Source: Heterotrichella gracilis (taxonomy: Eukaryota > Sar > Xanthophyceae > Tribonematales > Xanthonemataceae). From it: 45,163 nucleotides of DNA. The stretch spans positions 1 to 45,163 of the forward strand of contig JAULBX010026630.1 in the NCBI GenBank assembly GCA_032358255.1, given 5' to 3'. A program made the translations under genes and the position numbers. Under the pieces are notes generated by a model. That model was not told the DNA's origin and made no database searches. It worked only from the letters and a program-made list of their open reading frames with translations. Within the stretch, counting starts at the first letter, position 1, and the number at the start of each line of letters is the position of its first letter. Positions 2,329-42,494 of the stretch are shown here, in pieces.

Positions 2329-4401
2329 TCACAGAAACATCGGCCTCCTACACAGCGCCCCCTGCTCCTCCGCAGCGCTATCCTGCTCCCCATGCCCCGC
2401 CAGGATCCCTGCCACTGTATGCCCCGCCATGGTCCTCGCGCTCTTGCTCACCGGCCGCTCCCCAAGGTACAGGTCAAACAGCGCGGCGCACATGGCTGGG
2501 GATTGGACCGATCCCAGCGGGAAGCTGTCTATCCGTGCGGTCAGCACGCTGTGGCGGTCCTTTGTGAAGGTGAGCAGGGTGCCCTTCTTCACCGCGCCGC
2601 CCACCTTGACTTGCGCGGGCAGGCGGGCCTGGTCAAACATGGCCAGCACCTGTGGAGGTTCAGCGGGGAAGCGGACATCAGCTTGCGTTTTCTACATAAA
2701 AACAGAAAAATGGCCAGCACCTGTGGGCGTTTCACAGGGGGGAGCGCACGATGGCTTGTGCTTTCTAGAGGAAAAGGTGGAAAGATAACATGTGAAAATG
2801 GAAAACTACAGGCGGCAAAGCGCTGCACTCCTGCCAAGGTACATGCTGCTGTGAATGGAAAACTGCAATGCTTTTTAATGGGGGGATTTAGAATTAATGG
2901 TCTCCCATTTCAATTTGCATTTGCAATTTTGTTGGCGCTAAGCAATGTAGCCTGTAGTATATGTAAAAATGTCAATTTGCATGATATTACTCGTGGGGTA
3001 TATGATGGGCGGTACCAGTCAGGGGTGGACAGTAAACATACCCAAACGCCGTAGCCTGCACTTTAGGACACGCGCTTCATCCTCCTTGGGTTCTGCATTT
3101 AGGGTTTAGGGCTTGGCCTCACCTTGTCCAGTGCCTCGTCCTTAGGCGACGCGCCCACCAGCTGCAGCCTGTACTTGAGTATGCGCTCATACCCCTAGGG
3201 TTCCGCATCTGGGGTTTAGGGTTTGGCCTCACCTTGTCCAGTGCTTCGTCCTTGAGCAACGCCCCACCCGCTGCAGAATGTACTTGAGTATGCCCTTGCG
3301 ACCCCTTGAAATAAAACCCTAGGGTTGAGGTTTAGGGTTTGGCCTCACCTTGTCCAGTGCCTCGTCCTTTGGGGACGCCCCCACCCGCTGCAGCCTGTAC
3401 TTGAGAATACGCTCATACTCCTTTGACAGAAGCTTGATGGGCAAATTGCGCGAGGCGTGCACCACCAGCGACATCTCGATGTCCTCGCTGCTGCGCAGCT
3501 TCTCGCAAAACTGGTGCTGCTTGGCCCCCGTCAAGGGTGCGTCCAGCTGGGTTTTGAAGGTCTCACTGAGCCGGGAGGCCTTGGCCTGCGACATAGGAGA
3601 GGGTTGGGGTTTTGTACAACCAGGGTTGAGGGTTTTAGTGATATGGCCTCTACACTGGCATAGTGGTTAGGTGCATTCAGCAGCACTGCCGCAGCAAGCA
3701 GCGTTTTGCACAACCCACAATTGCCGACAGGGCTGGTGCCATGGCTGGGTATGAACACTATCAGTGATAGTGTTATCCCATAAGACCAGCACGTTGCAGC
3801 TTGTAGAGACCACCCATACCTGCTGTGCGTCCAAATAGAGCGCAAAGTCATAGATCTTCAGTTTTAGGACAGTCCCTCCCATGCCCCAATGCTTGTCCCC
3901 AAACGATGCCAATGCCTGCAACAGCAGCAATGGAACGGTTTTCCACCCACAGAAGTAGGAATATGCACTGCAATTGCTGGAAAAAGTGCCAGTTCCCTGG
4001 GTGGACTTGAAGGATAGGTGTGGAGTACCTGGTGAGTACCTGCAAACGGTTATTGCTGAGCACCTCACCTGGCAGTTCTCCCTCATACACAGCTTGTGTG
4101 GGAACGGTTTCGGCAAGTTTGCCAGCGTTTGGTACGTGTGTGCCCTGCACAAAAACAAGGGGAGATGTTGACTCACAGAACCAAGCTCCTGGCTAGGACA
4201 CCCACCTTGTACCAACACTGCTATTCCGTACCCGAAGAAAGCGCTGGCAGGAGCTGCAGCAAATAACGTGTCCACGTTTGCTGTTTTTCTTCTCCGCAGG
4301 GCTGCTCTCCACGGCCTGCAAACGGCACCCCACGCCTTGGAGAGACTAGTGCCCACCGCTCTGAAGGGTAGAAAAAATCTGCGCCTCCTCGCCACTTGCA
4401 T
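2329..4401 (-). CDS. Chalcone isomerase-fold protein (CHI-like / fatty-acid-binding type), plastid-targeted
   Basis: Five-exon model: 4401-4177, 4144-4064, 3915-3820, 3585-3349, 2649-2329, all phase 0, giving about 319 residues. Exon 1 begins MQVARRRRFF and is rich in Arg, Ala and Ser without acidic residues for about 50 positions, as in a chloroplast transit peptide. The CHI fold shows as KIYDFALYLD in exon 3, SRNLPIKLLS and YERILKYRL in exon 4, and the C-terminal SPAMCAALFDLYLGERPVS, close to the family's ALxRxLFDxYLG block. Family members of the FAP class bind fatty acids in plastids, while true chalcone isomerases make flavonoids. The FAP class is more likely in an alga, by inference. The acceptor of exon 3 could be 3891 instead of 3915 (same phase). 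Exons 3 to 5 are secure; exon 1 is the least certain. Partial exon-edge copies lie inside introns 4 (two copies) and just upstream of exon 5. Confidence 0.72.
2700..2737 (-). repeat. Copy of the 5' edge of CHI-like exon 5
   Basis: The block ATGGCCAGCACCTGTGG at the acceptor of exon 5 (about 2637-2668) occurs again at about 2707-2735 within the preceding intron. The copy carries the splice acceptor region and the first few codons only, then diverges. Confidence 0.55.
3112..3302 (-). repeat. Two copies of the 3' edge of CHI-like exon 4
   Basis: The last 75 or so bases of exon 4, with the donor GTGAGGCC and the following TTTAGGGTTT-like tract, recur at about 3112-3195 and 3222-3302, giving three junctions in a row with the real one at 3338-3425. 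Shared blocks include CCTTGTCCAGTGC and CTGTACTTGAG. Small substitutions and indels break the copies as coding sequence. Each copy is bounded by a telomere-like GGGTTTAGGG motif. Confidence 0.8.
3754..3774. repeat. 21-bp perfect palindrome with single-base centre
   Basis: Ten bases AACACTATCA are followed by G and then the exact reverse complement TGATAGTGTT. It lies in the intron between exons 3 and 4 of the CHI-like gene. It contains the core CTATCAGTGATAG also found in tet operators, which I take as chance in a nuclear intron. Confidence 0.9.
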
Positions 4402-5629
4402 AGTGGCTGGATGTGACTTGCAAAAGTGGAGGGAGGGTCTGCAGTCAGACCACAACTGCACAAATATTGCTTCCTATTCTTCCCGATGTTGCTCTTGCCA
4501 AGTGACGCATTTGGCCATGCTGGGCGGGGCAAATGGTGGACCAAGGGCACAGAGGTTGTGGCCACTGGCTGCTGCTGTTACTGGCCGTTACAGGTTCAAA
4601 AAGACGTAGTCGTCATGGCACTAACAACTTGTGTGTGGTCGCCTGCTCAAGTTATTATGTTTTATTCCGGAACAATTGTGGGGTTTTGCTTTGTAACACT
4701 CTCCCCTTGGCCAAGGCATGGGACATGTGCACACACTCATGCCATTGTGGCACTGCCACATTCGTCCTCAGTCCTGTAGCCAAAAAGGACTGCAAAAAAT
4801 TTCTGACCGTTGACAAGCTTACCTTTTTTTGTGTCCCCGTCAGCTGATAGGCACGTGAATGTGAATGTGGCGTGGCGTGCGTGCGTGAGTGGGCAATCGC
4901 TGGCATTACGCTAGCCATCTGGTAGGCTGGACCTCACCCACAACCCAGGAATTTATAGTTATACCCCTATTAACCCTTTTCTAACACAAATGACTTTACA
5001 CGATACGTTCATTTTGGTGTGTGCTGCTACTTGGCAGCGCTGCCAATAAAACCCAGCTTGGGGCCCGCACTCCCCGTAAGAACAGCGGAGGGATGTGTCA
5101 CTACATGCATGAAAGGCTTGATGCACATACAGCTAGAGGAGGCTGTGCTGCAACCACAGCAGTGCTCAGGCACCACGACAGTGCACTAGCGCTTTACGAA
5201 AATACAGCGGGAAAAAAGGTTTGCACAGAAAGAGGTTGCTGCGGCAGCGCAACCTCCACCAAAATCTTCTCAGCAGTGGCAGGCGGTTCAACAGTGATGG
5301 TGCAAGTGGGCGCCCGGTACATCTCGCATTGTGCGGCTGCGAAGGTTCGGTGTGCGGAGGGTTCACACTGAGGCACCTGGTGTGAGCAATGCAGGGGCCA
5401 GCATAGCGCCAACCCTACTGTCCCAGGGATGCCTCATCGGCAACCATGCTGTTCAAAAAGCTGGCTTGTTGTCAACTATGGCAGTCCAACGTCTCGCCCA
5501 CTTCCAACTCCAGTGGTCCAACAATGGGTGGCGCACACCCAACCCAGGTGCTCCCAGGTGGGTTTCTATGCCAGCGGGGCTGTCTCAGTGGGCTGGCTCG
5601 TTGCTCCACCTGGCGTTCCACAGGCTGGC
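4402..5629. other. Between CHI-like gene start and YCF54 stop; no gene recognised
   Basis: This stretch should hold the promoter and 5' UTR of the CHI-like gene and the 3' UTR of YCF54, both on the minus strand. Open frames on either strand lack family motifs. A minus-strand frame from about 4565 overlaps CHI-like exon 1 in another frame and is not supported. Confidence 0.4.
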
Positions 5630-6636
5630 TCATTGCCTCACAAATGGCTTGTACCAGCCTGGCGCGTATGGGGAGTAGGGGGCGGTCCATTTGCCGGTGC
5701 CCAGGGGCTCGGCAAACTCGGGGACTGGCGCCAGGGACTTGGTGGCCTCGTCGATCGAGATTTGTCCCAGCTCCAGCTTCAGCACGCGGTCCAGGCGGAG
5801 CTTCATGAACCTGAGCCACGCACACAGTCAAAATGAGGGGTGGTGTATGGTAGTTGTGGGGTGGCGGTATGTGTGCCTGGGTTGTGTGTTGATATTGGAG
5901 CAATGGACTTGAATGCAGGGGAGAAGAGAGCCTGTGATAGCAGAGAGCCACAAGCTACGTGTAAATCTGGGTACAGCTTGATAATTATGGGAGGACAGGT
6001 AGGTGCAGCAACGGTGCAACTGTTCTTCCAGAACACAGCAGAGGGTTCATCCCCACACCCCAGCAACCCCAGTTGTAACGCACGTTGTCCAGAGCCTGTC
6101 GGAGGAGACCAGCGCCACGCAGGGCCTGCGGACCATCTTGGCCTCCTTGGGGAACTTCTCGTCCAACCAGGCGGGTTCCGACACCAGGAAGAAGTCGATC
6201 TCCTGCCCTGTCTCCTGGAAGTGCCTGGCCCTCTCGCGCAGCTGCTCAGCAAACGACTCGTTTTGCACGTCGTTGATCATGAACTCGGCGTTGGCAACCA
6301 AGGCGTACCACTGCGCCTGTAAAAACGTTTTCACAGCGAGTTAGCAAATTGGTGGTTAGCAGACAGGTTCATTTGGGCAAGCACCTCTGCTCCCAAGTAC
6401 CACACCTGCCCAGATGAAGCCCCCGAAGACTGCGCGTCTTCAACAGCAGCGGCCTGGAGTGGCACACTGCGTTTGGCCGTCAGTGCGGTGTGCACGAAGG
6501 GCCTTGTGTTTGGGCACTTGAGGGACACCTTTGGTGAGCTGCTGTGGGCCTGTGCTGGGGAAGCACGTTGCCTTTGCGAGGAGCACCCATTGTGCACTTG
6601 GACGCTGCTGGTCTTGGCGTGCAGTGTGGTCGCCAT
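5630..6636 (-). CDS. YCF54: YCF54, subunit/assembly factor of Mg-protoporphyrin IX monomethyl ester cyclase
   Basis: Three exons, 6636-6406, 6316-6084 and 5810-5630, join in phases 0 and 2 to a 213-residue protein. YCF54 (LCAA in plants) is required for the oxygen-dependent cyclase that forms the fifth ring of chlorophyll, at plastid membranes. Exon 1 (MATTLHAKTSS..., rich in Ser, Thr, Ala and Lys, acid-poor for about 60 residues) is a transit peptide. The conserved body follows: WYALVANAEF, LRERARHFQETGQEIDFFLV, SEPAWL, VALVSSD and FMKLRLDRVL, colinear with the family as I remember it in cyanobacteria. The C-terminus extends about 45 residues past that core and ends KPFVRQ, as expected for a eukaryotic form. 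The donor AC|GTGCGT of exon 2 is not ideal but restores the frame exactly. It is transcribed away from CCB4. Confidence 0.88.
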
Positions 6637-7258: not shown

Positions 7259-9547
7259 ATGCTGCGTAGTTTACACACCCCCTGCCAGGCTTGCCTCCTG
7301 GCATGCCGCCCACACCGCCAATGCTGCACCCCCGCCAGAGCATGGCGCCACCGGGGGTTTGTTCCGAGGGATGCACCCCGGATAGCCCGCCCCGCACGGG
7401 TTGGCCTGGTGCTCCATGCCAGCGGCGCAGAGGGAGCTCCCGCCAAGACACAGGCAGGGCACTGCACTCATTTCTCCTTTTGCCCAAACTATCGGTGCAC
7501 CCGCACCTTGCTGCAGCACTTCCTTTGCTTTGATCAATCACTAGACTGAGTACAAAGTGCATCCACTACATCCAGTGCGCACCTGGCTTGTTGCATGGTG
7601 CAGCTGCAATATGGTGTGTGGACTACCCCCCCCCTGGCACCCACCCCTTCCCATCCCCTCCACCACCGCCACCCCTTGTGTACCTGCAGGTCCAACGGGA
7701 CGAGGAGTTTGATGTGGTGGTCAGGCTGTCGGGGGTGCTGCGGTCCCTACCCCTGGTGGCAGGAGGGGCGGGGATAGTGGGGGTGCTGGTCAACAGGCTG
7801 GTGTCGGGGGTAAGCAATAAAAGGCGTGCATGTGCAAAATGGCGTCCGTTAATATACAGCACCCGCCCCTGCCGTGAATTGGTGGATGCATCCTGCATTG
7901 GGCACTTGAGAATGTGACTGCCCCTGCCCCTGGTTGATGCACCTACTTCAGGGTGCCCACCCTAAACCCTAAACCATGTCTTGATGGTTGGAGAGCAGGG
8001 ACAGTGGGGGTGCTGGTCAACACGCTAGTGTCAAGGGTGAGCACAGCAGATGCACACTTTGGCAGCAGTACATGCCAACAGCGCACCATGGGCAGAACGA
8101 GATGCATGTAGTGACACCTCCATGCAGCAGTGCCCACCATCTAGCAACCCCCAACTCGCCCCAAACACCCACCCATGCCATGTGTTTCTCCCCCTTGACA
8201 CTGAACAGTCGCTTCTGACATGTGACCAAAATACAACGCCCGTAAATGTAAGCCCAATTCCTCTGTCCCAGATCGCCCCAGTGGTCGATGCCAGCTCATC
8301 GCAATCGCGCGCTGACGTGGCGGTGATAGTCATGTCAGCCGTGCTGCTGCTGACTGGGCTGTCGTGGCTGTCGCTCACCCCCCGACAACCCGAAGCGGTG
8401 GTGCTACAAGGGGAGCAGGTTAATTTCATGATAGAGGGGATGTCGGGGGAGGCGGCCAAGGAGTTGATGTGGTGGGTGGCGGGGGAGGAGGGGGCTTTGG
8501 GTAGTGCTGCATCAAACATGTTTGAGACCGTGCGCATAATTGTGTTACCAAAACTGTGCACAACTGACTCAATTTCTTCCGAATTTAATTTTCGCTTTTC
8601 AATTATATGTAGTTCTTGCTCTATAATTGTTCTGGATCAATTATCATTTCATGGCTCCGATTAGTGATGAAACTCGTGAATGAAACCCTAAACCCCAACC
8701 CACACTGCAGGGCGTGGGATGCCATCAGCGGCGCCAGCCGGTGCTCCAGCCTGGTGGTCATGTACCGGGGGAAGTGCATCATGCAGCAGGGGGTGGCGCC
8801 CACCGGTGCAGCCCCGGGAGGGGCTACTCCTGGGCCCATTTGCGAGAGGGCGATGAAGTCAGGCACAGGCAACTACTTGGCCAATCTCATCCTGTTCCCA
8901 GGTGGGGCTTCAGGGTTTAAATTTAGGGTTTAGGGTCAGGTCAATGAAACCAGGGACCTGCAGGCAACTACCTGCCCACCCTAAACCCTAAACTCTCCTG
9001 CCTTGCAAGCTGCTTTGCCATTTCACGCTTTAACCCCACAGTCCAAACTGATAAACCCTCATTATAACATGCTGTCCCGCAGGCCGCTTTGAGTTCCTTC
9101 GCTACCTCCCCGAGAACACGCAGGCTGTGGTGGTGCAGCCCGTAGGCAGCCAGGGGGTGCTGGTGGCGGGCAGCGACACACAGAGGGGGTTCGGGCGCAT
9201 AGACCAGGTGGGTGTGGGGGAGTGGGAGGGGGGGAGCTTTGGTTAGGTTGCGGGGTAGGAAGATGGGAATGTGCCTCCTCTTTGCTTAGCAATTTGGGAA
9301 CTCCCTCTCTCTGTAATGTTGAATGCTAAACGAAAGTAGGTTTGGCTTCTTGTTTTCTTGGGATTGTGTCAATGCAGAAATTGAAAAAGATGGATTTGTG
9401 TCAATGCGGAAAATCAAACAGGACTCTCCCTTGCTGCAGGCCTGGATCGCCACCATTGCTGACAAGCTGGAGGTCACCCTAGAGGGTTTCGCCCCCCGAG
9501 CGCAAGGGTTTGGGGCAAAGGGGGGGCAGCGGGCGGGCGGCGGGTAA
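7259..9547 (+). CDS. CCB4: CCB4-like protein, cofactor assembly of cytochrome b6f (heme ci)
   Basis: Six exons: 7259-7453, 7690-7809, 8272-8471, 8711-8901, 9083-9207, 9440-9547, giving about 312 residues with all phases consistent. CCB2 and CCB4 form a thylakoid complex that helps attach heme ci covalently to cytochrome b6. Exon 1 (MLRSLHTPCQ..., Arg/Ala/Cys-rich) is a transit peptide. Exon 2 has GIVGVLVNRLVSG, probably a membrane segment. Exon 3 has a second hydrophobic segment, VMSAVLLLTGLSWLSLTPR, typical of the family. Splicing of exons 3 and 4 creates ELMWAWDAI, then SSLVVMYRGKC and, after exon 5, FEFLRYLPENTQAVVVQPVG. The end of exon 1 appears to use a GC donor (CAG|GCAGGG). I prefer CCB4 to its relative CCB2 because of the WAW and VVxYxGxC blocks, from memory of the family. 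Confidence 0.75.
7985..8042 (+). repeat. Copy of the 3' edge of CCB4 exon 2
   Basis: The last 50 bases of exon 2 (about 7758-7815, containing GTGGGGGTGCTGGTCAACA) recur here with a decayed donor (GGGTGAGC). A telomere-like tract, ACCCTAAACCCTAAACC, lies immediately upstream at about 7960-7976. The copy lies within intron 2. Confidence 0.75.
8945..8995 (+). repeat. Fragmentary copy of CCB4 exon 4 with telomere-like tract
   Basis: CAGGCAACTAC from the end of exon 4 (about 8869) recurs at about 8959, followed by CCACCCTAAACCCTAAAC. The copied stretch is short, so this is weaker than the other cases. It follows the same pattern: exon edge, then a CCCTAAA motif inside the intron. Confidence 0.4.
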
Positions 9548-10697: not shown

Positions 10698-10818
10698 AAT
10701 GTAGCTATTGAAGGCGCCATCTAGATCTTGCAAGAGCTTTGACAATGCGAAGTCCCTATCAGCTACTGTACCTTGCCGACATTTGCCCTAAAAAGGGATG
10801 CAGTACAGTTGATGGTGC

Positions 10819-13769: not shown

Positions 13770-14462
13770 CTTACACACTGTTGGGAGAACGACAAAGAAA
13801 GGGAACGTGCAACGTAGAGGTGGGGGCGACAACTGCAGTTGCTTAACTGTCAGGTGTAACAAAGTGGATGTTGTCCTGTTAACATTAAGAAGTGCCACCT
13901 CAGACCGTCCTCTCGGGGTCTAATAGCTGCTGTGGTGGCAGTGTGGATGGTGCTCAGGGGGTGGTGACACACCCCCATGCCCCACCCCAAATCCGCTGGG
14001 AACCCCTACCCCCCTCCCAGCTGGTGTGTGTGGCAGGCGCCTGCGCTCCCCACCACCCCGTGCTTCAGTTGCTAATACAAAAACTTTGACGCCTTCTCAC
14101 CACTGCTGGAGCATGCCGTCAAGCACAGCTTGCGTAATAGGCGACAGTGGCCCCAACAACCCCGCCCGCACCCGCTTCCGCCGCTGTATGCTACTGTTGG
14201 TCACCAAGCGCAACCCACCCCACCCCCGCTGCTTCGATAATCGTCGTTCACAACGCACTCCGGCACAGCCCCACCGCCAACCGCGCCCGCGGCGGCCGCT
14301 GCTGCCGCCTGCCCCGCCGCCATCGTCCCGCGTTCCGCACTGCAACCGCTGCTGCGGTAGGCACCGCCACCTTGCAAACGGCATTGGCGGCAGCCAGCGC
14401 CTGGGGGGCGCTGTAGTACCATCCCCAGGCCGAGAGCGGGCCGCGGAGGCTGACCGCCCGCG

Positions 14463-14490
14463 GCCGCCGCTGCTGCTGCTGCTGCTGCTG
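14463..14490. repeat. CTG/CAG trinucleotide tract
   Basis: Eight or nine CTG units sit in the duplicated exon-27-like segment. The intact gene has interrupted GCC/GCT codons at the matching place, so the repeat expanded after the duplication. Confidence 0.8.
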
Positions 14491-15064
14491 CTGCCGCCGC
14501 CATTTGGCGCTTGCCGTTGCCTGTGCGAGCAAAGAGGGAGGCGCAACATTTGAAATATAAAATACAAACAAAAATGTAAATCAAATAGAAGATTATAGGT
14601 AAATCTGCTGCATTCGTTTTCAAGCTTGAACAGCCATTTTCACTATGTGGCTGAAACTAGCAGTTCACCCTCATGTCCATTGTGTTTCCTGCCTGCGTGT
14701 GCAGGGCATGAATCAGCAACATATTTTCCGACGTTTGTATAACATGCACGTCCCGTACCTGTGCATGTAGGACTGCTGCCTGCGCCTGCGCCTGTGCGTG
14801 CATGGTGTGCAGCTGGGCGTGAGGGGGGATACCAGGCCCAATGGGTAGGCGGGGGCGTGGGGGGCCGGTGGGCGCAGACCAATAAGGGGGCTGCACACAG
14901 GGGGGGTGTAGTGAGGCGCAAGAGAGGAGGGTGTAGTAAGGCGCAGGGGGGCATGGCGGGGGCCTGCAAGGGAGCTGGCTTGCATTTTAAACACCTTTTT
15001 TGGGTTGGGGGTGCAGAAGGGTGATGTTGCTGTGCTACAGCGTATGGAGGGGGAAAGTAGATGT

Positions 15065-15130
15065 GCGAGTGGGGTGGGGGGTCTGTGTGTGAGTGGGTCT
15101 GTGTGTGGGTGGGTCTGTGTGTGGGTGTCT
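15065..15130. repeat. GTGTGTGGGTGGGTCT minisatellite
   Basis: Three imperfect units of about 20 bases, GTGGGTCTGTGTGTGGGTG and variants, lie in the intron between the exon-25-like and exon-26-like segments of the duplicate. Confidence 0.7.
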
Positions 15131-16128
15131 ATTTTGTGAGTGGGTGGCTGCCGCGTACCCTGTTCCACGTGCGACAGCTGTGTTGCTGGCGGCAGAGTTG
15201 ATGGCGGTAGATCCCTTGGCCAGTCGCTGCAGCTCCTGCACACTCGCCATGGCCCCCCCCGTGCCAGGCGCTCGAGTTCCTGTGGGGGCCCACAACCATC
15301 AGGCATGATAGGGCAACTGGATATCACTCATGTGTGTGGGGTGGGACACAACATTGAGTTGGGAGCAAACATGGAAATGACGTCGGGCAAGGCGCTCAAG
15401 CTTTGGTTGTGGGGGGCCACACTGTCGTGTGGGAGGAGGGGGGCTCAGCGGCGCGGAAGGGGCAACAGCCATGTGCTCTGGGGTTCACACCATGGGGTGC
15501 ACCCCCAACCATCTCGTGTCACATCCTGGGAGGTTAGTCCCATGCTTTCTGCACACCAGTTGCCCAAAGAAACCCTAACCCCCGAGCCGAAAAAACCCTG
15601 ACCCTGGACCCTACCTTGAGCTCTGCTCTGAACACCTGCCCCGCGCAACCAAGTATGGCCCAGACCCCACCCAGCAATCCTCCACCCTGGACAATAAACC
15701 CTAGACCCTACCTTGAGGTCAGCTCTGCCGGGCACTCCAGCATGCCCTGCCGCTGTGACGCCGCCACCTGGCTCAGCCGCGCAACCTGGTGCAAACTGTT
15801 GGTGCCACTGCAATACCAGCTACCTCCACGAGTTGCAGACCCTGCTGTATGGTCCGCGCAAAAGACCCTGCCTGCTGCACCGTCTCCAGAGATGGCTGGT
15901 AAAGCTGCTGAAATGATCTGCCTAACTACCGTCAAACATAACTACAACTGCCGATATCATGTATGTCGCACAGTGCTGGCTGGCTGTGTTGCTGCAAGCT
16001 TGAGAAGAGAGACTCCTGCACACCCCTCCCTCCAAGGCCATGCTTGAGGAGAAGGCTACAACTCATCCAACTCCTCAGTAAGTGCCCTGCCTTATTGCCA
16101 AGAGGCCTTTCAGAAGCGCCAGATTCAC

Positions 16129-16489: not shown

Positions 16490-18579
16490 GCCAGGGACGA
16501 ATGACTCGTCGCCACGCGGATACGACTCCATCTGCTTCGTGGGCGGCTTGCCAGCGGTCGGTGACGTTGCCCGAGGATGTGGAGGAGGATCGTACAAGGA
16601 CCCACTGTGGAGAAGGAATGTAAAAGGGACCCACTGTGGTGAAACCCTTGGTATCAAACAGGAACAAATACGAGGTAGTGCTACCAGCTGTTTTTGCCCA
16701 AACGTGTGCTATACGCAAGCTTCAAACCAGTCTACCACCAGTCTACCACGAACGCAAAACGGCTTGAAGCTGACGCGCTGAACCATTTCAGGTCGCCACT
16801 GGCAACCTTCGTTGTGAGAAACAAGAGCAGCGGGCGGGCGGCGGGTAAACGGGGCCAGTACATACCCGGGTATGGCATATATGCTTGCAGCTTATCCCCA
16901 ACTTTCAAGCCCTACGGGAGTTGTGCTTGTGCACCTGAAAATGTCCGTCGCTTTCCCGCGCTTTTCTCCAAAGGAAGGATTTCTCTTTTAAGGGTTTCTC
17001 TTTTACAATGTGGCTCAAGTTTGAGCTGGCCGACACCTAGGAAAGGAAGGGATAGCGTTTAACGGGTTCCTTTGTCTTTATATAGGTGTGTAAGGGTGTT
17101 AGAGCCCTTGGCCCCTGTAGTACACCCCCACTATAGTGGTTTTCAAGCGGATCCAAGCGGATTCAAGGGGATTCAGGGGGATCCAGAGCCTTTCCGGCCA
17201 GGGTTAAGCTTCCTAAGAGCTTACCTGCTCAAAACCGGGCTCTCCGCATATGTTGGGCTTCGAAAACACAAAATCTATGCGCCATGGTTCAATTTACGAC
17301 CCATGGGACATCGATGCATGCGTACCCAAAACAGGCCAACTCTCAACAACGACCGGCTACGCGTCACACGAACCGAAACTAAGGGTATGACAACCCTTTC
17401 GCGAGCCAGGGCGCACCAGTAACTACTCGTATGTCACGTTCGAGCCCCTTCGCCACTTTTTCTCTCAAACGTCCGCCTGAGTCAGAGAACCCGCTTTAAC
17501 TAGGGTTTCCCATTCGCGCGACCCAGTTGTACTGCCGTATCGAAACGTGGAGCCGCTGCGATCCGACAAGCTTGCTAGTTTGGCAAACGTTTCAAAACGC
17601 TCCAAACGTTGACGAACGTTCAAAACAGCCCCTGCTACTCCTCACCCCGCCCCACACACCCCTCCACGCCCATGGTATGCGATGCCAAATTTGATAGGCT
17701 GGAACACGTGCACACAGACGGTTCACATCAAATGCATGTTTCAAAGCTTGCACAAACCTTCCAACGCTGATACATCGGCGGAACGAAAGAGCCTTTAGAG
17801 CCGTAAGCTAGTTTGTCGTAAGCTAGTTTGCCACCGCACAGATCTACTCAACTGACTGTCGACGAGGTACGAAGATGTGGGGGGGGCCCGGCTACGCCTC
17901 ACCCCCCCCCCCACACCCCTCCCCGCCCATCTGTCGTGAAACGTGCCAACTTTCAAACTGCGGTAACAGAAGACGAAATACAAACTCCGCAGTTGAAGCT
18001 ACACAGCTACTTGCCAAGCACCGCTGGCACCGCTGTGCACACCACTTCTGACCCCAAACTGGGCGGGGCTTCCCCACCTAGCATTGCTACCTAGCCTCCC
18101 CTATCTGGTCACAACGCTTATCAAACCTCTAAGGAAGTTGGGGAGGGCGACGTTAGGAGCCATACGTGTACGGAGATGCATGCATGCATTGTCAGCCCAG
18201 GTTATGTAAGGGTTTTGCCCCCCGGCGCAAGGGTTTGGGACAGAGAAGGGGCAGCTGCACTAGGTGGGGGTGGCTGAGCGGTGGACATCACCAGTCCACG
18301 TTGTCTCAATAGGAATTATACTAACTTTTCTTAGGAGCGCCTTGCAATTAGCGTTGTAATAGCGTCGTAATAGTGGAGGCCAACAGCTTGGACCAATACA
18401 TTGGACTGTGGCCGCTGAGTGGATTGGGCGTCGACAAATATTGCATCGAGTGCAGTATTTGGTGGGGGCTATGCGCAATGCCTATGCCGCCTTATGCACG
18501 CCTTTGGCTTTTGGTTTCTTTTTTTTCCTTTTCTTATTGACAGCCTGCGGTCAGACTGCCACTCTTACATAATACCCCA
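16490..18579. other. Gene-poor stretch with repeat fragments
   Basis: No supported gene. Observed: an AGCGGGCGGGCGGCGGGTAA match to the end of CCB4 (about 16828-16847); a second CCB4-end-like stretch, GCGCAAGGGTTTGGG, at about 18224-18238; tandem CGTAAGCTAGTTTG at about 17800-17830; and two copies of a CCTCACCCC...ACACCCCTCC block at about 17639-17680 and 17897-17935. Short open frames on both strands have no family features. Confidence 0.45.
18215..18312 (+). repeat. Dispersed copy of the CCB4 3'-terminal exon and flank
   Basis: CCCCCCGGCGCAAGGGTTTGGG matches CCB4 near 9499-9520 closely, and the following GGCAGCTGC...CTGAGCGGTGGACATCA...CCACGTTG resembles 9599-9675. The source lies about 8.7 kb away on the same strand. 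It is not open as a CCB4 exon. Confidence 0.5.
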
Positions 18580-18727
18580 TGTTTAGAAAATTTCACGAAG
18601 AAGAAAGGAATTGTGCAAGTTGAGGTGAACGTAGAGGTTGGGGCCACAACTGCAGTAGACTGACTGTCAGGTGTAATCAAATGAAGGCAGAACTTGGCCA
18701 GTTGGGAACTCCAACTCAGACCCAAAT

Positions 18728-18752: not shown

Positions 18753-19083
18753 TGACAGCTCCTCACAGGGCCTAACAGCTGCTGTGGTGCCACTGGCACT
18801 TTGGATGCCTCAGGGGCCGGTGACACTGCCATGCCGTCCAAAACACCCTGGCACCCCAATCCCCGCTGGTGTGCGTGGCAGGCGCCTGCAGTGTCCACCA
18901 CCCCCGTGTCCCAGTTGCTAATAAAACGCACTCCAGCGCCTTCTCACTGGCGCCCAAGCATGCCGCAAACCGCTGCACAGGGTGCGCAACAGTTGTTCCA
19001 ACAACCCCTCCCGCACCCGCTTCCTTCACTGTGGCATGTGCTACTGTCAGTCACCAATCGCGACGGACCCCGCCCCCGCTGCT

Positions 19084-33424
<14,341 letters not shown>

Positions 33425-34698: not shown

Positions 34699-37539
34699 TC
34701 AAATGCCCTCTTCTGATGCCGTCAGCTGCACCTGGTGCTTGCTCACCTCCCACAGCGCCGCCGCCAGGTCAGCGTTCTGCGCCATGGCTGAGGCCTGGCG
34801 CTCCCGCATGTCATGGAGGTATAATACGTGCTTGCCCTCAAGATCTGGCGAGGTGGCTGCGTATAACACCGTGGAGGCGCCCTGCGCAGAGCGAATGCGG
34901 AGGATTGTGGGCGGCGCACGATGCTTGCATACATGGATTTCATTAGGCATCGGTCAAACATTGCTGTTGCATGTCATTTGGGTTTTGTGGTTGTTACGGG
35001 TTTAGGGCTGGCGCTCCTGCATGTCATGAAGGTATAATACGTGTTTTCCCTCCAGCCCTGGCAAGGTGATTGCATGCAGTACCGTGGATGGATTACCGTG
35101 GTGGCGCCCTGTGTGTGGGCAGGAGTGATCCGTGTGACATGACAACATCTGGTGGCCTGATGCGGTCGACAGGCTATCATGCTGACATGTCAGCAGCTTG
35201 CAGATGTCAGCAGCTTGCAGATGATAGCAGCTTGCACTTTGCACCACAGTGCAGCACTCCCACCATGTTAGCAGCTTGCACATGATGGCCTGCCCCACCT
35301 GACATGGCTGTGTACACCCATACAGCATACCGCAGCTGGTGGCCACTACATGTGTGGAAGCTAATGACCTGATGAGAACAAGTGCCCTTGGATACTACAA
35401 GGGGGGAAACGGTACTGTGCATATTCAGACATTGCTGCACACTAGCCCACCTGTGCGGGCGTCTGGCACATGGCCCCCGCCAGCGGGCTGATGATGGCCC
35501 GCCACGGCTGCGGCAGGCCATTGAAGATGCCTGTGGCAACCCTGCCTGGCGACACACAGTAGGCGGTGATGGCGCGGGGGGACGCGTCCAGCCTGCGCTG
35601 CAGCTGTGCGGTGAACAGCAGGTTGCACAGCTTGGAGCGGGCGTAGCGCGTGTACCTGGGGAAAAGGGGCGGGCGTGTGTGGCAAGGGGTAAGTATAATA
35701 ATAAATATCTCGATACACAGGTATCATTAGGCCAAAAGTTAAATTTGTGTCCTCTGTCAGTGTGACCGTTGTTCATTATCCTTCCCGTGGTGCCCACGCA
35801 AGGCAGCACAAGGTACACATTAATATGCAGGGGGGGGAAGCCCCCAAAGAAAATGCAGGAAAACATGCCGGACACAGCCACCCCAAAATGATAATGAATT
35901 CAAAAATATGAACCCAGCCACTCACCAGTTGGCTTGCACGCTGTTGGTGACTTCAGTAGCCGACAGCTGCAGCGCATCCGATCGAAAGTGCGCCTCACTG
36001 CCCACGTTCACTATCCTCCCCTTGGTGCCCATGCAGGGCAGCACCAGGTGGGTGAGCAGGAATGGCCCAAAGTGGTTGATGCGCAGGTGGGTCTCCACAC
36101 CTGTTGGCTCTGTTGGCAGCCCCATCACACCTGCACGATGCCAAAAGTGAGCTTTACTTGGGAGCAGTCATGGAATTCAGTGTTGTAGGGTTATAGCAAG
36201 GGGTATATAGAAAGAGAGCCACAGCCACAGCCACAGCCACAGCCACAGCCACAGCCACAGCCACAGCCACAGCCACAGCCACAGCCACTGCCACAGCCAC
36301 CACAGCCAAGTCACCCGCTCCCACCTGCATTGTTGACCAGCAGTCCCACCTCCCGCCCCCCCTTGGCCAGCCCCTGGCGCAGCCTGTGTGCAAAGCCACG
36401 CACCGACTGGTAGTCACCCAGATCCACCTGCTGGCACTCGCAGCTACCTGGCAATGGTGGGCGGCTAGTGAGTGAGCGACCTGGAAACCTTAAATCCTAA
36501 ACCCTAAACCATCCAACACGCAGCACTGGATCAGCAATCAGCCTTTATTGGTCGGTATGCCATTCCGGCACTAGACATACATGGCACATACACATACATG
36601 GTTAGGTAGCTAGCTAAATTAGGTTAGGTAGCTAGCTAAGCTAATGAGTTGGAGTCCAGGACGGTGGATGAGTACAGCAATGCAACCGGATAAGCAGCCG
36701 GCATGTCATACAGGGGGTAAGCAGTTACATCCTGCCACTGTCTGGAGCGCCTACCTGGCATGGACCGCCTGTCCAGCTCCTCTTTGGCAGCTTCACACCT
36801 GGACAGAGGAGGAGGAAGGGACCCGCTGGTCACGCTTACGACAGCCATTGGCGGGCCAGGATGGGGATGGGGAGGGTTCTGCCGGCAAGTGAGTAGGCGA
36901 ATGGCTCATCAGTAATGAGGTAAGGTTGTGGGCACCTGGTGTGTGACCGACGCGAGGGAAGCAGGGGACCTAAAACCCTAAAGCGCAGACCCCAAAGCCC
37001 TAACCGCTGACATGCCGACCCAGGAGCTTTTCATCCCAAAGGGCCGCACCTGGTCATGTCTCTGCATGCCAGTACCACGTGGCGCCCCTGGCGCACCAGC
37101 TCTGCCGCAACCTCCTTGCCTGCAAAAACCATAGTATACAAACACTGCGACGCGGCATATTGGTCAGTGGGACGGCGCGCCAGGGCGCAGTGGAAGCATG
37201 TAACTCTCGGGCGGTTTGTATGTATGCTGGGTGACCTTCATCCGTCTTTTGCTAGGCACGCACTTATATACCACAATGTATTGTGTATATGCATGCATTG
37301 CAATGCATGCATGCCTGTAAAACAAGAAGCGCGCGCACTTCTGCTGAGAGAAGAACGAAACAATTACTCTTTATATGCCCAAAATATTTATTGAGCGTGT
37401 ACTGCACACGAGCCGGCACTTGGCGACACCGTAGATGACAAAGGTGGTAGCACTGCCTAGCGAGGCGCGAGTGCAACCTACCTATTCCAGCGTTTGCCCC
37501 AGTGACAATGCACACGTTGTCGTGCGCAGCGAAGCTCAT
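34699..37539 (-). CDS. Short-chain dehydrogenase/reductase (retinol dehydrogenase / TIC32-like)
   Basis: Seven exons, 37539-37482, 37119-37050, 36798-36755, 36447-36325, 36130-35926, 35655-35451 and 34881-34699, join in consistent phases to 295 residues. The N-terminal dinucleotide motif is TGANAGIG (residues 13-20). NNAG follows, then the strand with the catalytic serine, IVNVGSEAHF, and the active-site YxxxK as YARSK, followed by LCNLLFT as in the RDH11-14 and TIC32 group. The family uses NAD(P)H to reduce or oxidise small carbonyl compounds. The substrate cannot be told from sequence. No obvious signal peptide or transmembrane anchor precedes the nucleotide fold. Residues after YARSK (VSPGRVATGIF) fit the usual PGxVxT. 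Edge copies of exon 7 and an internal exon 5 segment lie in the introns. Confidence 0.88.
35000..35112 (-). repeat. Copy of the 5' part of dehydrogenase exon 7
   Basis: About 105 bases parallel the GASTVLYAATSPDLEGKHV-coding start of exon 7 (34780-34890), including CGTATTATACCTTCATGACATG. A small insertion shifts the frame near the beginning. GTAACAACCAC and a TTTAGGG-like motif adjoin. Confidence 0.85.
35758..35830 (-). repeat. Copy of an internal part of dehydrogenase exon 5
   Basis: CTTGTGCTGCCTTGCGTGGGC and the following GGAAGGATAATGAAC repeat the VLPCMGTKGRIVN part of exon 5 (35999-36050) in the downstream intron. This case is internal rather than strictly at the splice site. Confidence 0.7.
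36217..36304 (+). repeat. (CCACAG)n hexanucleotide microsatellite
   Basis: About fourteen nearly perfect CCACAG units lie in the intron between dehydrogenase exons 4 and 5, with one CCACTG variant near the right end. On the transcribed strand it reads CTGTGG. It lies just downstream of the exon 5 acceptor side, so length variation could affect splicing. Confidence 0.95.
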
Positions 37540-38376: not shown

Positions 38377-40282
38377 TCATCCCACAAAGTCTCCCCAGTC
38401 ACTGGCCTCCCCTTGCTTGTCGCTCGCTTCCACTTCATCCCCTTGCTGATCATCCCCGGGACCACCACCACCACCACCACCACCACCGCCACCGCCACCG
38501 CCACCACCACCGCCACCACCGCCACCACCACCACCACCACCGCCACCACCACCGCCACCGCCGCCGCCACCGCCACCGCCACCGCCGCCGCCGCCACCAC
38601 CACCGCCTGGATCACTACCCTCCGACAAGGCTTCCGAGCGGCCTTCAACCATGTGCACTCCGCTGAGCTTCTTGTGCAATTGCTTGCTGCTCCCAGCCTC
38701 TCCCTGCTCCTCAACCCTACCCGAGGCTGATTGGAACCCCGGCGAAGGGGGTAAGGGCAGCCTGGGCACACCTGATTCGTCCAGTGAGAGTGCCCCCATC
38801 AGAGGGATACCCTTGTGTAGCTTTGCTGCCCAGTTTGCGCCTGGTGAGGACTCCCCGCCAGAGTCGGCCTTGGGTATCTGCAGCAGCAACACAGGGTGTC
38901 ATCCGCTGGGGTGGGCAGATTATTCAATATTTCGAGCAAAGGTTTGGGTTTCCCAGAGCATACTCAGGGGCTGGATTGACAAAACCCTCAACCCTTCAGC
39001 AAGTGATGTCATGTGCGGGGTTTGAACAAACCGCAGATTCAACAGCATGTGTGAGACCGGCGGCGCACATGGTTCCGCTGTGCCAACCCATGACACTTTT
39101 TTGCGTGAAAGATTTCTTTTAACTAATCAATAATAAAGTCATAAATAATCATTGGTGTAATGCAGAATTGCAGAAACCATTTAACATGCATGGGTTGGTG
39201 CACGCGTACGCTGGAAAGGCTGATCTTGATGGTTTCGCCTGGCTTAAGGCTGTAGTCGTGCAGTGGCTCGGCTGGCCCCTCCCCAGCCGATGCCACCTCA
39301 GCGTCATACTTCTCCCGCATCTCCTGCGCCTCCAGCTTCCTCCGCAGGTACTGCCGGTGCTCGTCTATGGCGGCTGCAAAATCTGAGGACTGGTTCCGAT
39401 CCCTGGGATATAGGGGATGCCCTTGGTTCTCAAATCTCAAAACTGGAGGCTGTTCACAGATGCACAGCTGGGTGGCGCAAGATAATTCAAGGCATGCCAC
39501 GACAGAGCTGGGTGACGCAAGCTGTGCAGGAATGGCTGCTAGCCTATCTGTACCAGTGGAGTGCATGCCACTGACCAACATGGGATGAAGCACAAAGCTG
39601 GGGCAAGGCCCCGAGAGCGAGGTGCATAGTGGATGGTGCAAGTGTCTCAACTTGCAACCCACAATGCCCACCTGAAGCCAACTCCCAGGAAGGCGTGGCG
39701 TCCAGACTCTGGGTCCACCACCCGCAGCACATAGTACCTGGAGCTGTCAACCACTGGCTCCACTGCCTGCAGGGGGTAGACAGGGCATGGTTTCAGCGCA
39801 CTGGGGGACAGTGGGTCAGGTGGACACTGTACACCAAACTTTACGAGACCATCGCTGTGTTGTACTTACCGTTATGATGGGGAGGTCCTTGGGAACAGGG
39901 CACTCTGCAAACAGCTCCCCTGCGGTGGGTGTGCACAGTTTCGTCAGGTGAGTGGTCACATGCCAAATGGTAGGAATCTGGCCATGCAGGTTTTCAGCCC
40001 GCTTCGCACCTGTTTCTTGCTCCTCTAATCTCACCACGCAGTCATCCTGGCATGTCACGACCTTGACGGACACGACCTGCACCCAGGTTTGCAGGATCAG
40101 GCTCCCTACCAATGCATAATAAATTGGTTTCACTTCACCGTGCATAACCCACTCACCTGTAGCCATTTGTCTACATTCCATAGCTCAGCCCTGTGTCCGA
40201 TGGTATTGGAGGGAGGGACCTGGTAGACGTAGCACTCTCTGCAGGAATATGCAACGATCTCGGTGTTTTCAGGGTCATCCAT
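38377..40282 (-). CDS. NECAP-like adaptin-ear-binding endocytic protein
   Basis: Six exons, 40282-40157, 40076-40010, 39919-39870, 39766-39672, 39402-39210 and 38877-38377, give 343 residues in frame throughout. The N-terminal DUF1681 (PH-like) domain is clear: [49 protein letters not shown], and after a gap the strand [16 protein letters not shown] proteins bind AP-2 and help build clathrin coats at the plasma membrane. The last exon encodes a Ser/Gly/Pro linker, a tract of about 49 glycines, an acidic stretch and the end SDWGDFVG, whose WGDF fits the WxxF motif that binds the AP-2 alpha ear. An upstream in-frame ATG at 40306 would add eight residues. Transcribed away from the GNAT gene. Confidence 0.88.
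38461..38607 (-). repeat. Polyglycine-coding GGN tract in NECAP
   Basis: An uninterrupted run of about 49 GGT/GGC codons (CCACCG on the plus strand) stays in the NECAP reading frame between DP and PGDD. The mixed GGT and GGC usage argues against a pure slippage artefact. On the plus strand the same bases read as Thr/Ala or His/Arg frames, which I reject. Confidence 0.9.
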
Positions 40283-40605
40283 AGCGCCCACAGCTGCTGG
40301 CTGCATCTGCTGCAGCGAACTGGTAGGAATACGTACTGAGCACCGAGGTTGCAACTATGAAAGCTAAAATCCGGAACCCTATGGCACGACTTCGTGGCAT
40401 ATGAAACACAGCAACACAGAACACATGCATGCATTTGCAACCACTCAACTGCCCGCCAGGACAAAAAGATAGGGAAAACAGTACAAGAGACTTGGCTACC
40501 CCCCGTCATGGGAGTGCTACGGTAGCGCAGCAGCTGCAACCTGCTTCAGAAACGTTTCCTAGCATTTTTTTGTTGTCAATAAACCCGTCTAGTCCACATT
40601 CACCT
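40283..40605. promoter_or_regulatory. Divergent promoter region between NECAP and GNAT genes
   Basis: About 320 bp separate the two start codons. The stretch is relatively AT-rich with a TTTTTTTGTTGTC run near 40566 and a palindromic TGCATGCATATGCATGC next to the GNAT start. No TATA box that I would defend. 5' UTRs must be short or shared. Confidence 0.5.
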
Positions 40606-42494
40606 ATGCATGCATATGCATGCCGTGGCTTGAACCCGCCAAATACGGCCGCTCCTATGCCGTCCCTACACTGCCACTATAGTTTGAAACCGTTCATAAG
40701 GAGCTCAGGTCATCATAGGCGGTCCTATGCTGTTCCACCGCGTTGCATTCAGAGCCAGGCCGTCACCCATGTAGTGGTGCGACAAGCCACCAACAGTGCA
40801 GAGTACAGGGCTGCTGCGTACCTACGGGCAAGCTGCTTCTACACGTATCCTGAGGGCCGTTCTCAGTACTCAGCAAGGGTGAGAGTCTGACCCTGCACCT
40901 CCAACAGCTTCCTTTCAATGGGGGGCTGCTGGATCTCTTCCACACAGCACACACACACACACCGGCTGAACCAACACTTGCCTGTTTTGCCTAATAACCA
41001 GGACAAGTAGAATGACCCACTGTCGTTTATTCTCGTTCAGGCACACAGGCGTTTGAAAGGAGACACTGAGTGGGAGGCGATAGAAAACAAGGCTGCTGGC
41101 AGGGACGTCGCCTACAAGGTATCCCTATACCTCACCCTATACTCTGTACCCTGGATGGCTTGGCTGCCACAGTTTATCTTCATGCTGTGGAGAAAACTGT
41201 AGTATGGTTTAGGGTTTAGGGTAGTGTTGACCTCAAACCCAAACCCCGGACACAAAACCCTAAACCCTAAACAGGGCTGCTCAAACCCCTCCTCCCCACC
41301 ACCAGGACATGGTGATCACCACCTTCATCGCAACCATAGCGGATGACAAGCACTGCGACGTAGCCCAAGCAGTGCGGTCACAGGAGGACTGCTCATGCCT
41401 GCTGCCAGCCAGTGGCCGGAGCCAAGCGCAGCTGGTGGTGGGGACGCTGGATGTCAACCAGGGCTCAAGATTGCCTGCAGAGGAACTCACAGGTGAGCGC
41501 TTGTATTCACTTCTACAGTACGATGTATCAGGGTTTTGTTTCCTTTGTTTCAATTGCAGACATTAGCAGTCAGCGGAAGGCTATGCCGGTACTTGTTTTT
41601 CCCCCTTATTTTGGTCAGAATTGGGGGGTGCTGGTTGGAGCATCTGTTAAGTTGCAGCAAAGAGGCACAACTATGGAGCACTTCTGGTGCACAGCAAATA
41701 AATCAATGAGTAAAATCAAAACAAATTGCTCCATTGCCTCACAATTTGCCGTGCTCTCACAGGGCATTTGCCAGAGGGTGCCTCGTCAAGGACGGAGAGG
41801 GCGTACTTGTCCAACGTGTGTGTAGCAAAAGCAGCTCGGAGACAGGTAGAGCCATGCAGTTTCCCTTGCATGCTTTCCAGCTGGGATATCCCCAATCTTT
41901 GTGTGTGGTCAGTAAAGCTGGAGTGTTCCAAGCGCATCTCATAAGATATAAATGTATTTTTTTGCAGGGCATCGCCGCCAAGCTCATTCAGTCCGCAGCA
42001 GAATTTGCCCAACAGCAAGGTAGGATCTGCACCTGTCTCATCAGCCTGTATGGATTTGCATGTGCATCTGCAAGCACAGTAACCAACCACTGGCGACCAA
42101 TCATGTGGGTGGTGGCAATTATTGAATTCGGCGTATGATAATTGTTTCGTATTTTGGCCGTCAAGGTCCAGTTGCACGAAACGCGACCTAGCAAATCATT
42201 ACACGGCATGACAGATTGTTTCCAGGGGCAAAGCCTTTGGACAGAAAACCTCGCAAATACCCTAAAACCCTAAACATGGCCTGGTGTTTCCCAGGGGCAA
42301 AGCACTTGTACGTGCACGTGGTGGCAGACAACGCCTCAGCAAGGACCCTGTACCTGGACCGATGCAATTTTCAAATTGAGCAGGAGGAGTCTTCAGCCTT
42401 TGCACGCGCCTTGCGGCGACCGCGACGATTGCTGCTGCAGCAAACGCCTGGGGGGTTGTTGGGGCATATACAGCAGGACGCCATGGCGGTGTGA
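40606..42494 (+). CDS. GNAT-family N-acetyltransferase, plastid type
   Basis: Six exons, 40606-40878, 41041-41118, 41306-41492, 41763-41845, 41968-42019 and 42295-42494, give 290 residues with all phases consistent. The first 60 residues (MHAYACRGLNPPN..., basic, Ser/His/Pro-rich, no acids until about residue 67) look like a chloroplast transit peptide. The body has EYRAAAYLRASCFY, then LVVGTLDVN, then AYLSNVCVAKAARRQGIAAKL. The RRQGIA part is the acetyl-CoA pyrophosphate loop (R/Q-x-x-G-x-A). HLYVHVVADNASARTLYLDRCNF is the typical motif B with its Asn and Tyr. Plant plastid GNATs of this kind acetylate N-termini and lysines. Substrate is inferred only. The last exon has an Arg-rich tail ending DAMAV. 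Start chosen because the frame is open with no splice site needed. Confidence 0.87.
41208..41272 (+). repeat. Opposed interstitial telomere-like tracts
   Basis: TTTAGGGTTTAGGG at 41208-41222 is followed 32 bases later by CCCTAAACCCTAAA at about 41258-41272. The two are in inverted orientation and could pair as a hairpin. They lie in intron 2 of the GNAT gene. Confidence 0.85.
42216..42240 (+). repeat. Copy of the 5' edge of GNAT exon 6
   Basis: TTTCCAGGGGCAAAGC repeats the acceptor and first codons of exon 6 (42287-42303) about 70 bases upstream. CCCTAAAACCCTAAAC lies between copy and original at about 42258-42273. Confidence 0.8.

Follow-up and report, generated by a model that had tools for sequence, protein, structure and literature searches.

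Exon-edge duplications and their decay in the introns of Heterotrichella gracilis

Results

Genes of the window and copies of exon edges

The stretch of DNA analysed here (hereafter, the window; 45,163 nucleotides, contig JAULBX010026630.1 of the Heterotrichella gracilis assembly GCA_032358255.1) contains genes whose introns carry partial, decayed copies of the edges of adjacent exons. Its best-supported gene, on the minus strand at ca. 20.4–33.0 kb, encodes a CHD3/PICKLE-type remodeller: 789 residues from the joined exons match CHD4 (PDB) with an E value of 4e-211 and no stop. In protein searches its product shows ca. 50% identity with plant PICKLE proteins and, among the matches listed, 59% over 75% of the query with Trebouxia sp. 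A1-2; no near-identical protein appeared among the best 120 of 3487 matches. The homology check of gene models covered this CHD (PICKLE) gene alone, and the names CHI-like, CCB4, dehydrogenase and GNAT are labels from an initial annotation, whose PICKLE exon numbers match our predicted exons after a shift by one. That annotation had reported exon-edge copies in the introns of these five genes, and we recovered a pair of at least 40 bits at 18 of the 19 edges that it named (15 in PICKLE, plus CHI-like exon 4, CCB4 exon 2 and dehydrogenase exon 7); the exception was GNAT exon 6, with a 23-column match below threshold.

The copies are not specific to the window. Our sample, to which all figures below refer unless stated otherwise, consisted of 285 kb of one genome (68.5 Mb, 903 contigs), made up of the window (contig C412), 200 kb of contig C2 and four 10-kb pieces, with 27% exon, 42% intron and 31% other sequence. 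Exon and intron boundaries are those predicted by a self-trained hidden-Markov gene finder, trained on the same 285 kb, which learned a donor consensus near AG/GTG.GT and an acceptor consensus near TGCAG/G (slashes mark the junction). Calling as duplications direct pairs of at least 40 bits and at least 30 columns, with a spacing of at most 500 bases, we obtained 136 pairs that grouped into 96 arrays, or about one array per 3 kb; density per kb was 0.51 in the window, 0.34 in C2 and 0.20, 0.10, 0.20 and 0 in the four other pieces. The spacing quartiles of 93, 127 and 196.5 bases agree with the range of ca. 70–230 first proposed. Self-blastn comparisons (at least 40 bits, spacing below 1 kb) yielded 32 direct pairs in the window and 100 in the 200 kb of C2, and no inverted pair in either. 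Twenty-two short predicted exons were copies of a longer exon and were relabelled as intron before classing, which favours the edge class over the exon-exon class.

Duplications accumulate at exon edges

Classed by their best pair, 85 of the 96 arrays were edge arrays, in which exon sequence is paired with a copy outside that exon, and the rest were intron-only (7), exon-exon (3) or intergenic (1); the 136 pairs were distributed likewise (111 edge, 18 intron-only, 5 exon-exon and 2 intergenic). Edge arrays were mostly exon in 59 cases and mostly intron in 26, and 76 of them had a junction inside the match, the other nine pairing exon with non-exon sequence without a junction inside. When the exons of the CHD gene were delimited manually, at least 26 exon bases were present in 19 of its 21 pairs, and the remaining two sit within an array of decayed copies at 31.9–32.3 kb.

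The self-alignment was compared with random shifting of the arrays along the same sequences (500 shifts). Shifting produced 37.3 junction-spanning arrays (standard deviation 4.2, maximum 50) versus the 76 observed, together with 25.7 intergenic arrays versus one and 18.7 intron-only arrays versus seven. Among the 23 arrays with at least 88% identity, 16 spanned a junction versus 8.1 expected and none was intergenic versus 6.3, while intron-only arrays showed no deficit (4 versus 4.9). These comparisons confirm that the edge placement of the duplications is far from random.

Some edge excess is to be expected in any case: a duplication at an exon edge does no harm, since the correct mRNA can still be made with one of the splice sites, and its exon half can be recognised for longer. 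We simulated duplications that were placed uniformly, with exon-only and multi-junction units rejected and the same blastn detection, letting both intron copies and the exon copy decay neutrally and the exon at third positions, with uniform ages. From 3000 events per model, a pure tandem model (M1) gave 512 rejected, 1115 found and 1373 missed, and a model with filler (M2) gave 560, 954 and 1486, respectively. Scaled to 96 arrays, the edge, intron-only and intergenic classes stood at 36:30:30 (M1) and 29:37:30 (M2) versus 85:7:1 observed, which bears out the initial contention that such a distribution is not to be expected from random tandem duplication. Across five decay settings the simulated intron/edge ratio was 0.73–1.16 and the intergenic/edge ratio 0.77–1.02, versus 0.08 and 0.01 observed for arrays (0.16 and 0.02 for pairs), and altered indel rates did not mend the mismatch. 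GC content was rejected as a cause, since at 55–70% GC duplications cover 10.8–12.9% of edge windows and 1.8–3.3% of intergenic ones. Uniform formation, purging, decay and detection, as simulated, thus do not explain why duplications lacking exon sequence are almost missing; the distribution is far from the uniform one of a formation blind to gene structure, and differential loss may have shaped it.

An array overlaps 79 of the 370 predicted introns, and these have a median length of 412 bases versus 269 in introns without one. The intron-building process proposed initially therefore holds as far as lengthening is concerned; we found no clear case of an intron born in this way.

Form of the duplicated unit

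Copies had also been described as centred on the splice junction. A junction does lie inside 76 of the 96 arrays, but it is not exactly centred, and intron reach is that of random placement plus decay. Taking one best pair per junction, the shares that reached 10, 20, 30 and 50 intron bases were 0.70, 0.54, 0.49 and 0.38 at donors and 0.77, 0.58, 0.38 and 0.31 at acceptors. Simulated edge pairs gave 0.68–0.76, 0.58–0.67, 0.48–0.56 and 0.34–0.46 in four settings, and 0.65, 0.51, 0.45 and 0.35 in the heaviest indel setting. Because observed and simulated reaches are alike, the position of the unit across the junction is about what random placement would give, and the geometry needs no junction-centred machinery. 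The possibility that the homology stops precisely at the splice consensus is weakened, since the simulation with more indels gives equal intron-side reach. Exon reach exceeded intron reach in 15 of 16 rows in a sign test to which we give little weight, as the rows were hand-picked from 25 with at least 88% identity, dropping multi-copy arrays and some others; the simulated counterpart ranged from 24/46 to 24/30.

Most young duplications contain additional sequence between the copies. Among 25 pairs with at least 88% identity and at least 45 columns, the aligned length was below 0.75 of the spacing in 17, of which 16 were drawn out; a further copy was detected in between in five and none in 12, one of which (c2 192393) shows a short partial copy by eye. 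Likewise, young edge arrays (n = 19) had a median ratio of aligned length to spacing of 0.52, with 16 below 0.75, and the simulated ratio was 0.38–0.51 with filler versus 0.99–1.00 for pure tandems. Simple tandem duplication without filler is rejected for most young pairs, in which the aligned length is about half of the spacing; it does fit the multi-copy arrays. Copies of the best pair lie at least 15 bases apart in 62 of the 96 arrays, and the other arrays fit plain tandem repeats. A typical case is c2 89606–89738, where two 50-base copies are separated by a 33-base filler with CTAAACCCTAAACC; c2 81168 and c2 105908 are alike. Direct close copies and filler between copies with defined unit ends are both features of staggered breaks, and this A-B-filler-B-C form, with its direct orientation and local range, would point to such breaks having been repaired by fill-in and end joining. 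At C2 222470–222708 (c2 122470–122708), an intronic tandem array of 99% identity adjoins a run of N, which hints that assembly may have lost the youngest arrays.

Copies decay neutrally and differ in age by class

In columns with one side labelled exon and the other not (labels before cleaning), exon and intronic copy differed at 160/1336, 163/1334 and 263/1331 of codon positions 1, 2 and 3 (0.120, 0.122 and 0.198, respectively). The equal rates at positions 1 and 2 indicate that the copy drifts freely, with the excess at position 3 owed to silent change in the exon itself, and this neutral decay means that the copies are not exons. The intron parts of pairs showed 0.76–0.77 identity at positions 7–20 versus 0.85–0.86 in exon parts. 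Splice dinucleotides were intact in 29 of 36 donor copies (5 not covered) and 22 of 26 acceptor copies (3 not covered), which is near the neutral expectation.

With identity as a measure of age (bins of at least 95, 90–95, 85–90, 80–85 and below 80%), edge pairs numbered 4, 17, 15, 19 and 56. Intron-only pairs numbered 3, 1, 6, 4 and 4 versus 3.5, 16.2, 13.4, 17.2 and 32.4 expected, which makes 15 below 95% identity versus ca. 79, and intergenic pairs 0, 0, 0, 1 and 1 versus 2.6, 14.7, 14.7, 22.3 and 42.9; by arrays, one intron-only case had at least 95% identity versus 2.6 expected. Thus, a shortage of intron-only pairs is not seen in the youngest bin, which holds as few as three of them, and is strong in the older ones, making selective loss a live alternative. 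This age pattern fits a loss of those repeats that lack the protection of an exon.

Telomere-like patches, CpG signals and repair domains

Telomeric 10-mers occur at 12.0 per kb in filler, 4.85 in introns, 0.38 in intergenic DNA and 0.03 in exons. Of 62 arrays with filler, 23 contained a telomere-like 7-mer in it versus 12.0 expected in a length-matched test (standard deviation 3.1, maximum 21 in 300), twice the frequency of random intron sequence, so that the CCCTAAA-like motifs noticed initially at the joints are indeed enriched, in many arrays and not in most; a telomeric repeat at the joint characterizes a minority. Introns with an array held a telomeric 10-mer in 39 of 79 cases versus 51 of 291 without one, a contrast that is partly one of length because array introns are longer. 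Altogether, 130 patches lie in introns and 11 in intergenic DNA, with quartiles of distance to a junction of 27, 64 and 130 bases versus 46, 95 and 160 if uniform. Within 60 nt of a predicted acceptor, 20 patches had the CCCTAAA sense, all at 12–40 nt, and eight the other sense, at 27–53 nt; near donors both senses were even (17 and 21). The CTAAAC of the patches resembles, we presume, a branch site. In the 68.5-Mb genome there are 834 exact interstitial sites of the 21-mer CCCTAAACCCTAAACCCTAAA (428 and 406 by strand) and none of the reversed control.

The observed/expected ratio of CpG was 0.62 in exons, 0.47 in introns and 0.58 in intergenic DNA, and C>T changes in copies affected 67 of 551 CpG sites (0.122) versus 110 of 2224 elsewhere (0.049). 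To judge from these base counts, the CpG depletion and the CpG-biased C>T change suggest methylated gene bodies. Domains of telomerase, DNA polymerase A and DNA methylase were matched in the genome, as was, above the cut-off, a DEMETER-type RRM_DME, with one stop inside.

Duplications in the window and the CHD partial duplicate

The duplications of the window are collected in Table 1. A segmental duplication (13908–15783 and 18760–20661; 72–75% identical) takes in the 3' terminus of the CHD gene with its flank, and the edge array 20429/20544 in one segment is collinear with 15601/15698 in the other, at a mean column identity of 82%. The shared array probably predates the segmental duplication and, being common to both segments, would indicate that the duplicating process is not only recent. 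Fast intron turnover was rejected as a cause of lost intron homology, as the two segments (13.9–15.8 and 18.8–20.7 kb) align at 72–75% through predicted introns. Both motifs of the 20046/20149 pair are found again in the CHD paralogue, at 15.2–15.4 kb.

Table 1. Exon-edge and related duplications in the window (positions in nucleotides; TRF, Tandem Repeats Finder)
Feature	Position	Strand	Details
CHI-like, 5'-edge copy	2635-2702 / 2706-2775	-	spacing 71; 75% identity, 71 columns
CHI-like exon 4, 3' edge and donor, three times (3053/3166/3329)	3053..3422	-	period ca. 113; TTTAGGG-like stretches in unit; TRF period 110, 3.1 copies; pairs at 113, 226
CCB4 exon 2, 3'-edge copy	7768-7816 / 7995-8043	+	86% identity; 7 intron and 42 exon bases
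PICKLE exon 25, 5'-edge copy	20046-20095 / 20149-20204	-	near 3' end of CHD gene; 77% identity; 40.1 bits, barely above threshold
PICKLE exon 24, 3'-edge copy (20429/20544)	20429..20633	-	spacing 115; collinear with paralogous array 15601-15727
PICKLE exon 20, 3'-edge copy (22288/22424)	22288..22511	-	TAAACCCTAAACCCTA at joint; 73% identity
PICKLE exon 19, 3'-edge copy (22838/22907)	22838..22955	-	spacing 69; 80% identity
PICKLE exon 19, 5'-edge copy (23001/23113)	23001..23223	-	spacing 112; telomere-like stretches in unit; 76% identity
PICKLE exon 15, 3'-edge copy (24858/25019)	24858..25074	-	spacing 161; 86% identity
PICKLE exon 13 (SNF2-domain), 5'-edge copy	26177-26254 / 26416-26493	-	filler with three TTTAGGG units; 92% identity; 60 exon and 18 intron bases
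PICKLE exon 12 (SNF2-domain), 5'-edge copy	26812-26913 / 27009-27110	-	90% identity; 82 exon and 20 intron bases
PICKLE exon 11, 3' edge and two downstream copies in same intron (27260/27364/27472)	27260..27532	-	pairs at 104, 201; up to 95% identity
PICKLE exon 10, 3'-edge copy (27847/27972)	27847..28070	-	spacing 125; 81% identity
PICKLE exon 7, 5'-edge copy (29567/29667)	29567..29697	-	spacing 100; 91% identity, 32 columns; 6 matching intron bases, CTGCAG
PICKLE exon 5, 3'-edge copy (30192/30274)	30192..30345	-	spacing 82; 74% identity
PICKLE exon 5, 5'-edge copy (30413/30531)	30413..30584	-	spacing 118; 81% identity
PICKLE exon 3, array of 3'-edge copies (31271 array)	31247..31795	-	unit ca. 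107, higher-order unit 226; TRF 226 x 2.2, 90% matches; pairs at 107, 226, 334, 455
PICKLE exon 3, 5'-edge copy	31888-31942 / 32013-32067, more decayed copies to 32312	-	93% identity for first, 74-84% later
Dehydrogenase exon 7 copy (34791/35004)	34791..35088	-	spacing 213; 81% identity; match ends 6 bases before predicted junction
Dehydrogenase, second exon copy	35771..36049	-	spacing 235; junction not inside; 86% identity, 44 columns
GNAT exon 6, weak 5'-edge copy	42217..42307	+	local match; raw score 32, under threshold

Repeats of other kinds also occur in the window. There is an (AGCCAC)14 hexamer array with 97% matches at 36217–36300, a long ACC/GCC trinucleotide array at 38461–38607, and short dispersed repeats, 77–88% identical and far apart (9483–9530 / 18209–18255; 1254–1315 / 18464–18525; 13811–13859 / 18628–18676).

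Discussion

A candidate origin by break repair and selective survival

The reading that we favour, with a probability of about 0.5, is a repair of staggered breaks in gene bodies, sieved by selection. In the scheme that we infer, a staggered break would arise from two nicks on opposite strands, ca. 40–140 bases apart, mainly within gene bodies, and its ends would be filled in and joined with new DNA to give the A-B-filler-B-C form; telomeric filler would appear in a minority, as if telomerase acted at some breaks. Paired-nick duplications have reportedly been described by Schiml et al. in 2016. Duplications wholly within an exon would be purged by selection, whereas those at an edge would be tolerated, with one splice site still yielding the right mRNA, and the surplus copy would turn into intron and decay neutrally. 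Where no exon sequence is involved, collapse between the direct repeats would be neutral, and such duplications would gradually disappear; the same event at an edge would bring the decayed copy into the exon and be selected against. Repeated rounds would lengthen introns from both edges. Of this scheme, the duplication structure, the filler, the neutral decay, the excess at edges and the scarcity outside genes are observed; nicks, fill-in, telomerase action and protection from collapse are postulated. As to whether the restriction to exons stems from break placement or from scar survival, we lean, at even odds, to a mixture that includes selective loss, over breakage aimed at exons, which we hold to be clearly less probable.

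Several observations weigh against this reading. Protection from collapse predicts an excess of very young edge arrays, and a deficit is seen: 3 of 85 (4%) have at least 95% identity versus 16% simulated, which may speak against simple collapse, or reflect a slowed process or assembly collapse, as near-identical youngest arrays may have been lost in assembly. The 90–95% bin already holds a single intron-only pair versus 16.2 expected, and the fall with age is uneven, with 6 versus 13.4 at 85–90%. Collapse alone does not explain that intergenic pairs are 2 of 136. Some young copies end 0–9 bases from the predicted junction, and identity rises again to 0.86 beyond 60 intron bases, a rise that we ascribe to a few multi-copy arrays.

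Alternative explanations

Breakage linked to exons or splicing, which we regard as possible but distinctly less probable than the reading above, would aim breaks at exons and their borders, where staggered cuts would duplicate the edge. Breaks could arise where spliced RNA pairs with its template DNA, leaving the intron as a loop, or where methylated CpGs, densest in exons, are nicked by base-excision repair. The 85 of 96 arrays with exon sequence at or near an edge, versus 29–36 under uniform formation, speak for this, as do the contrast between edge and intergenic windows of equal GC (10.8–12.9% versus 1.8–3.3%), the CpG signals suggestive of methylated gene bodies, and the DEMETER-type RRM_DME (one stop inside) and DNA methylase domains. 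Yet the youngest intron-only pairs are not short in number (3 versus 3.5), nor are intron-only arrays of at least 88% identity (4 versus 4.9), the position of the junction within the unit looks random, exon CpG density is only ca. twice that of introns (estimated from GC and the observed/expected ratio), and the R-loops and the methylation are putative. Breakage linked to R-loops, one of the mechanisms suggested initially, may still apply. More doubtful still is an extended version, in which exon-targeted, splicing-linked break and repair would itself build introns: breaks at RNA- or methylation-marked exon DNA would end at or near the junction, and the CCCTAAA strand of a telomeric seal would provide a branch-point-like, pyrimidine-rich stretch, turning the scar into a working splice region. 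Plain chance, that is, random tandem duplication with purging of exon-only events and longer detectability of exon copies, draws on short, dense introns, such that random units often span a junction (37 of 96 by shifting), and exon copies do remain detectable longer; the gap between 85:7:1 and either simulated distribution, alike in direction in all five decay settings, renders it improbable.

That the copies are real or alternative exons, miscalled by us, could account for the 22 copies that the gene finder called as short exons and for the intact splice dinucleotides. Intactness is about what neutral decay allows, however, and columns with exon on one side only carry no signature of codon-position constraint; where both sides were labelled exon the rates were 0.083, 0.126 and 0.165 at positions 1–3. 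Moreover, such exons would repeat segments in the conserved SNF2 region, and the CHD4 match (E 4e-211) is obtained without them, so we consider this explanation very unlikely. Least credible of all is an RNA-templated or mobile-intron origin, with exon pieces taken from mRNA or introner elements making long target-site duplications: the copies are local, direct and exon-rich, as it would have them, but many carry intron sequence. Template switching, suggested initially, found no support as far as spliced mRNA is the template, since no copy across a spliced exon-exon junction was accepted among 366 probes; there were 34 raw crossings with ca. 10 bases on each side, and of the 30 inspected, 28 were the probe's own place and two fell on predicted introns or exons that are tiny and doubtful. 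Insertion linked to reverse splicing, also suggested, fared no better as the work of a mobile intron, with no intron families in the sample and five similar pairs among 340 introns, four of them telomeric.

Comparison with known systems

The individual steps of the process have precedents, although none was found at this scale. In the potato RdRp gene, a tandem duplication across an intron-exon boundary created an intron (Ma et al. 2016, PMC4974935); as described there, it spans the end of the intron and the beginning of the exon, and the duplicate inherits branch site, polypyrimidine tract and acceptor, the old exon part becoming intronic, much as in our copies. That account concerns one gene and one event, unlike the 96 arrays in 285 kb found here, often with filler, some of it telomeric, and lengthening an existing intron. 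The AGGT model of intron gain by internal tandem duplication within genes (Gao and Lynch 2009, as related in PMC3443670 and PMC4974935) shares the tolerance of an internal duplication because splicing removes the surplus. As related there, the model places the intron between duplicated AGGT sites, with spacing equal to intron length; here, in contrast, 87 of 92 exon-copy pairs have at least 100 bases between the far end of the copy and the splice site opposite, and one pair comes within 10, which led us to reject intron birth in the same event. The pair 34791/35004 (window 34791–35096) alone fits such a birth: its spacing is 213 for a predicted intron of 215, and 8 bases separate the copy from the far splice site, but the exon predicted to follow, a 12-mer, is doubtful.

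Patch-mediated double-strand break repair in rice (Vaughn and Bennetzen 2014, via the review PMC7407515) yields tandem or partly tandem duplications with insertions, ascribed to asymmetric nicks in base-excision repair and to end joining; exon-edge restriction and telomeric filler set our arrays apart from it, as the review describes it. Short telomeric stretches at repair sites are likewise known as interstitial telomeric repeats at double-strand breaks in mammals (Nergadze et al. 2007, PMC2246262), where flank duplication is given for 6 of 130 rodent and 4 of 25 primate loci. Unlike the loci of that account, the patches reported here are mostly intronic (130 versus 11 intergenic) and tied to exon-edge duplications. 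Introner elements of Amoebophrya (PMC7789003) resemble our arrays in their intron-associated direct repeats at exon borders; as reported there, these repeats are of 3–5 nt, with inverted repeats and families, whereas our units measure tens to more than 100 bases and form no family in the sample. Our literature search, thin on subscription papers, found no report of this pattern across a whole genome.

Implications

The 22 copies called as extra exons are a warning to gene predictors. The lengthening of introns, and the source of the sequence involved, are mostly invisible since their traces decay; here, about one fifth of the predicted introns still have them in recognisable form. The pattern makes two questions testable in one organism, namely, whether breaks are aimed at exons by transcription or splicing, and whether selection against collapse preserves junk beside exons.

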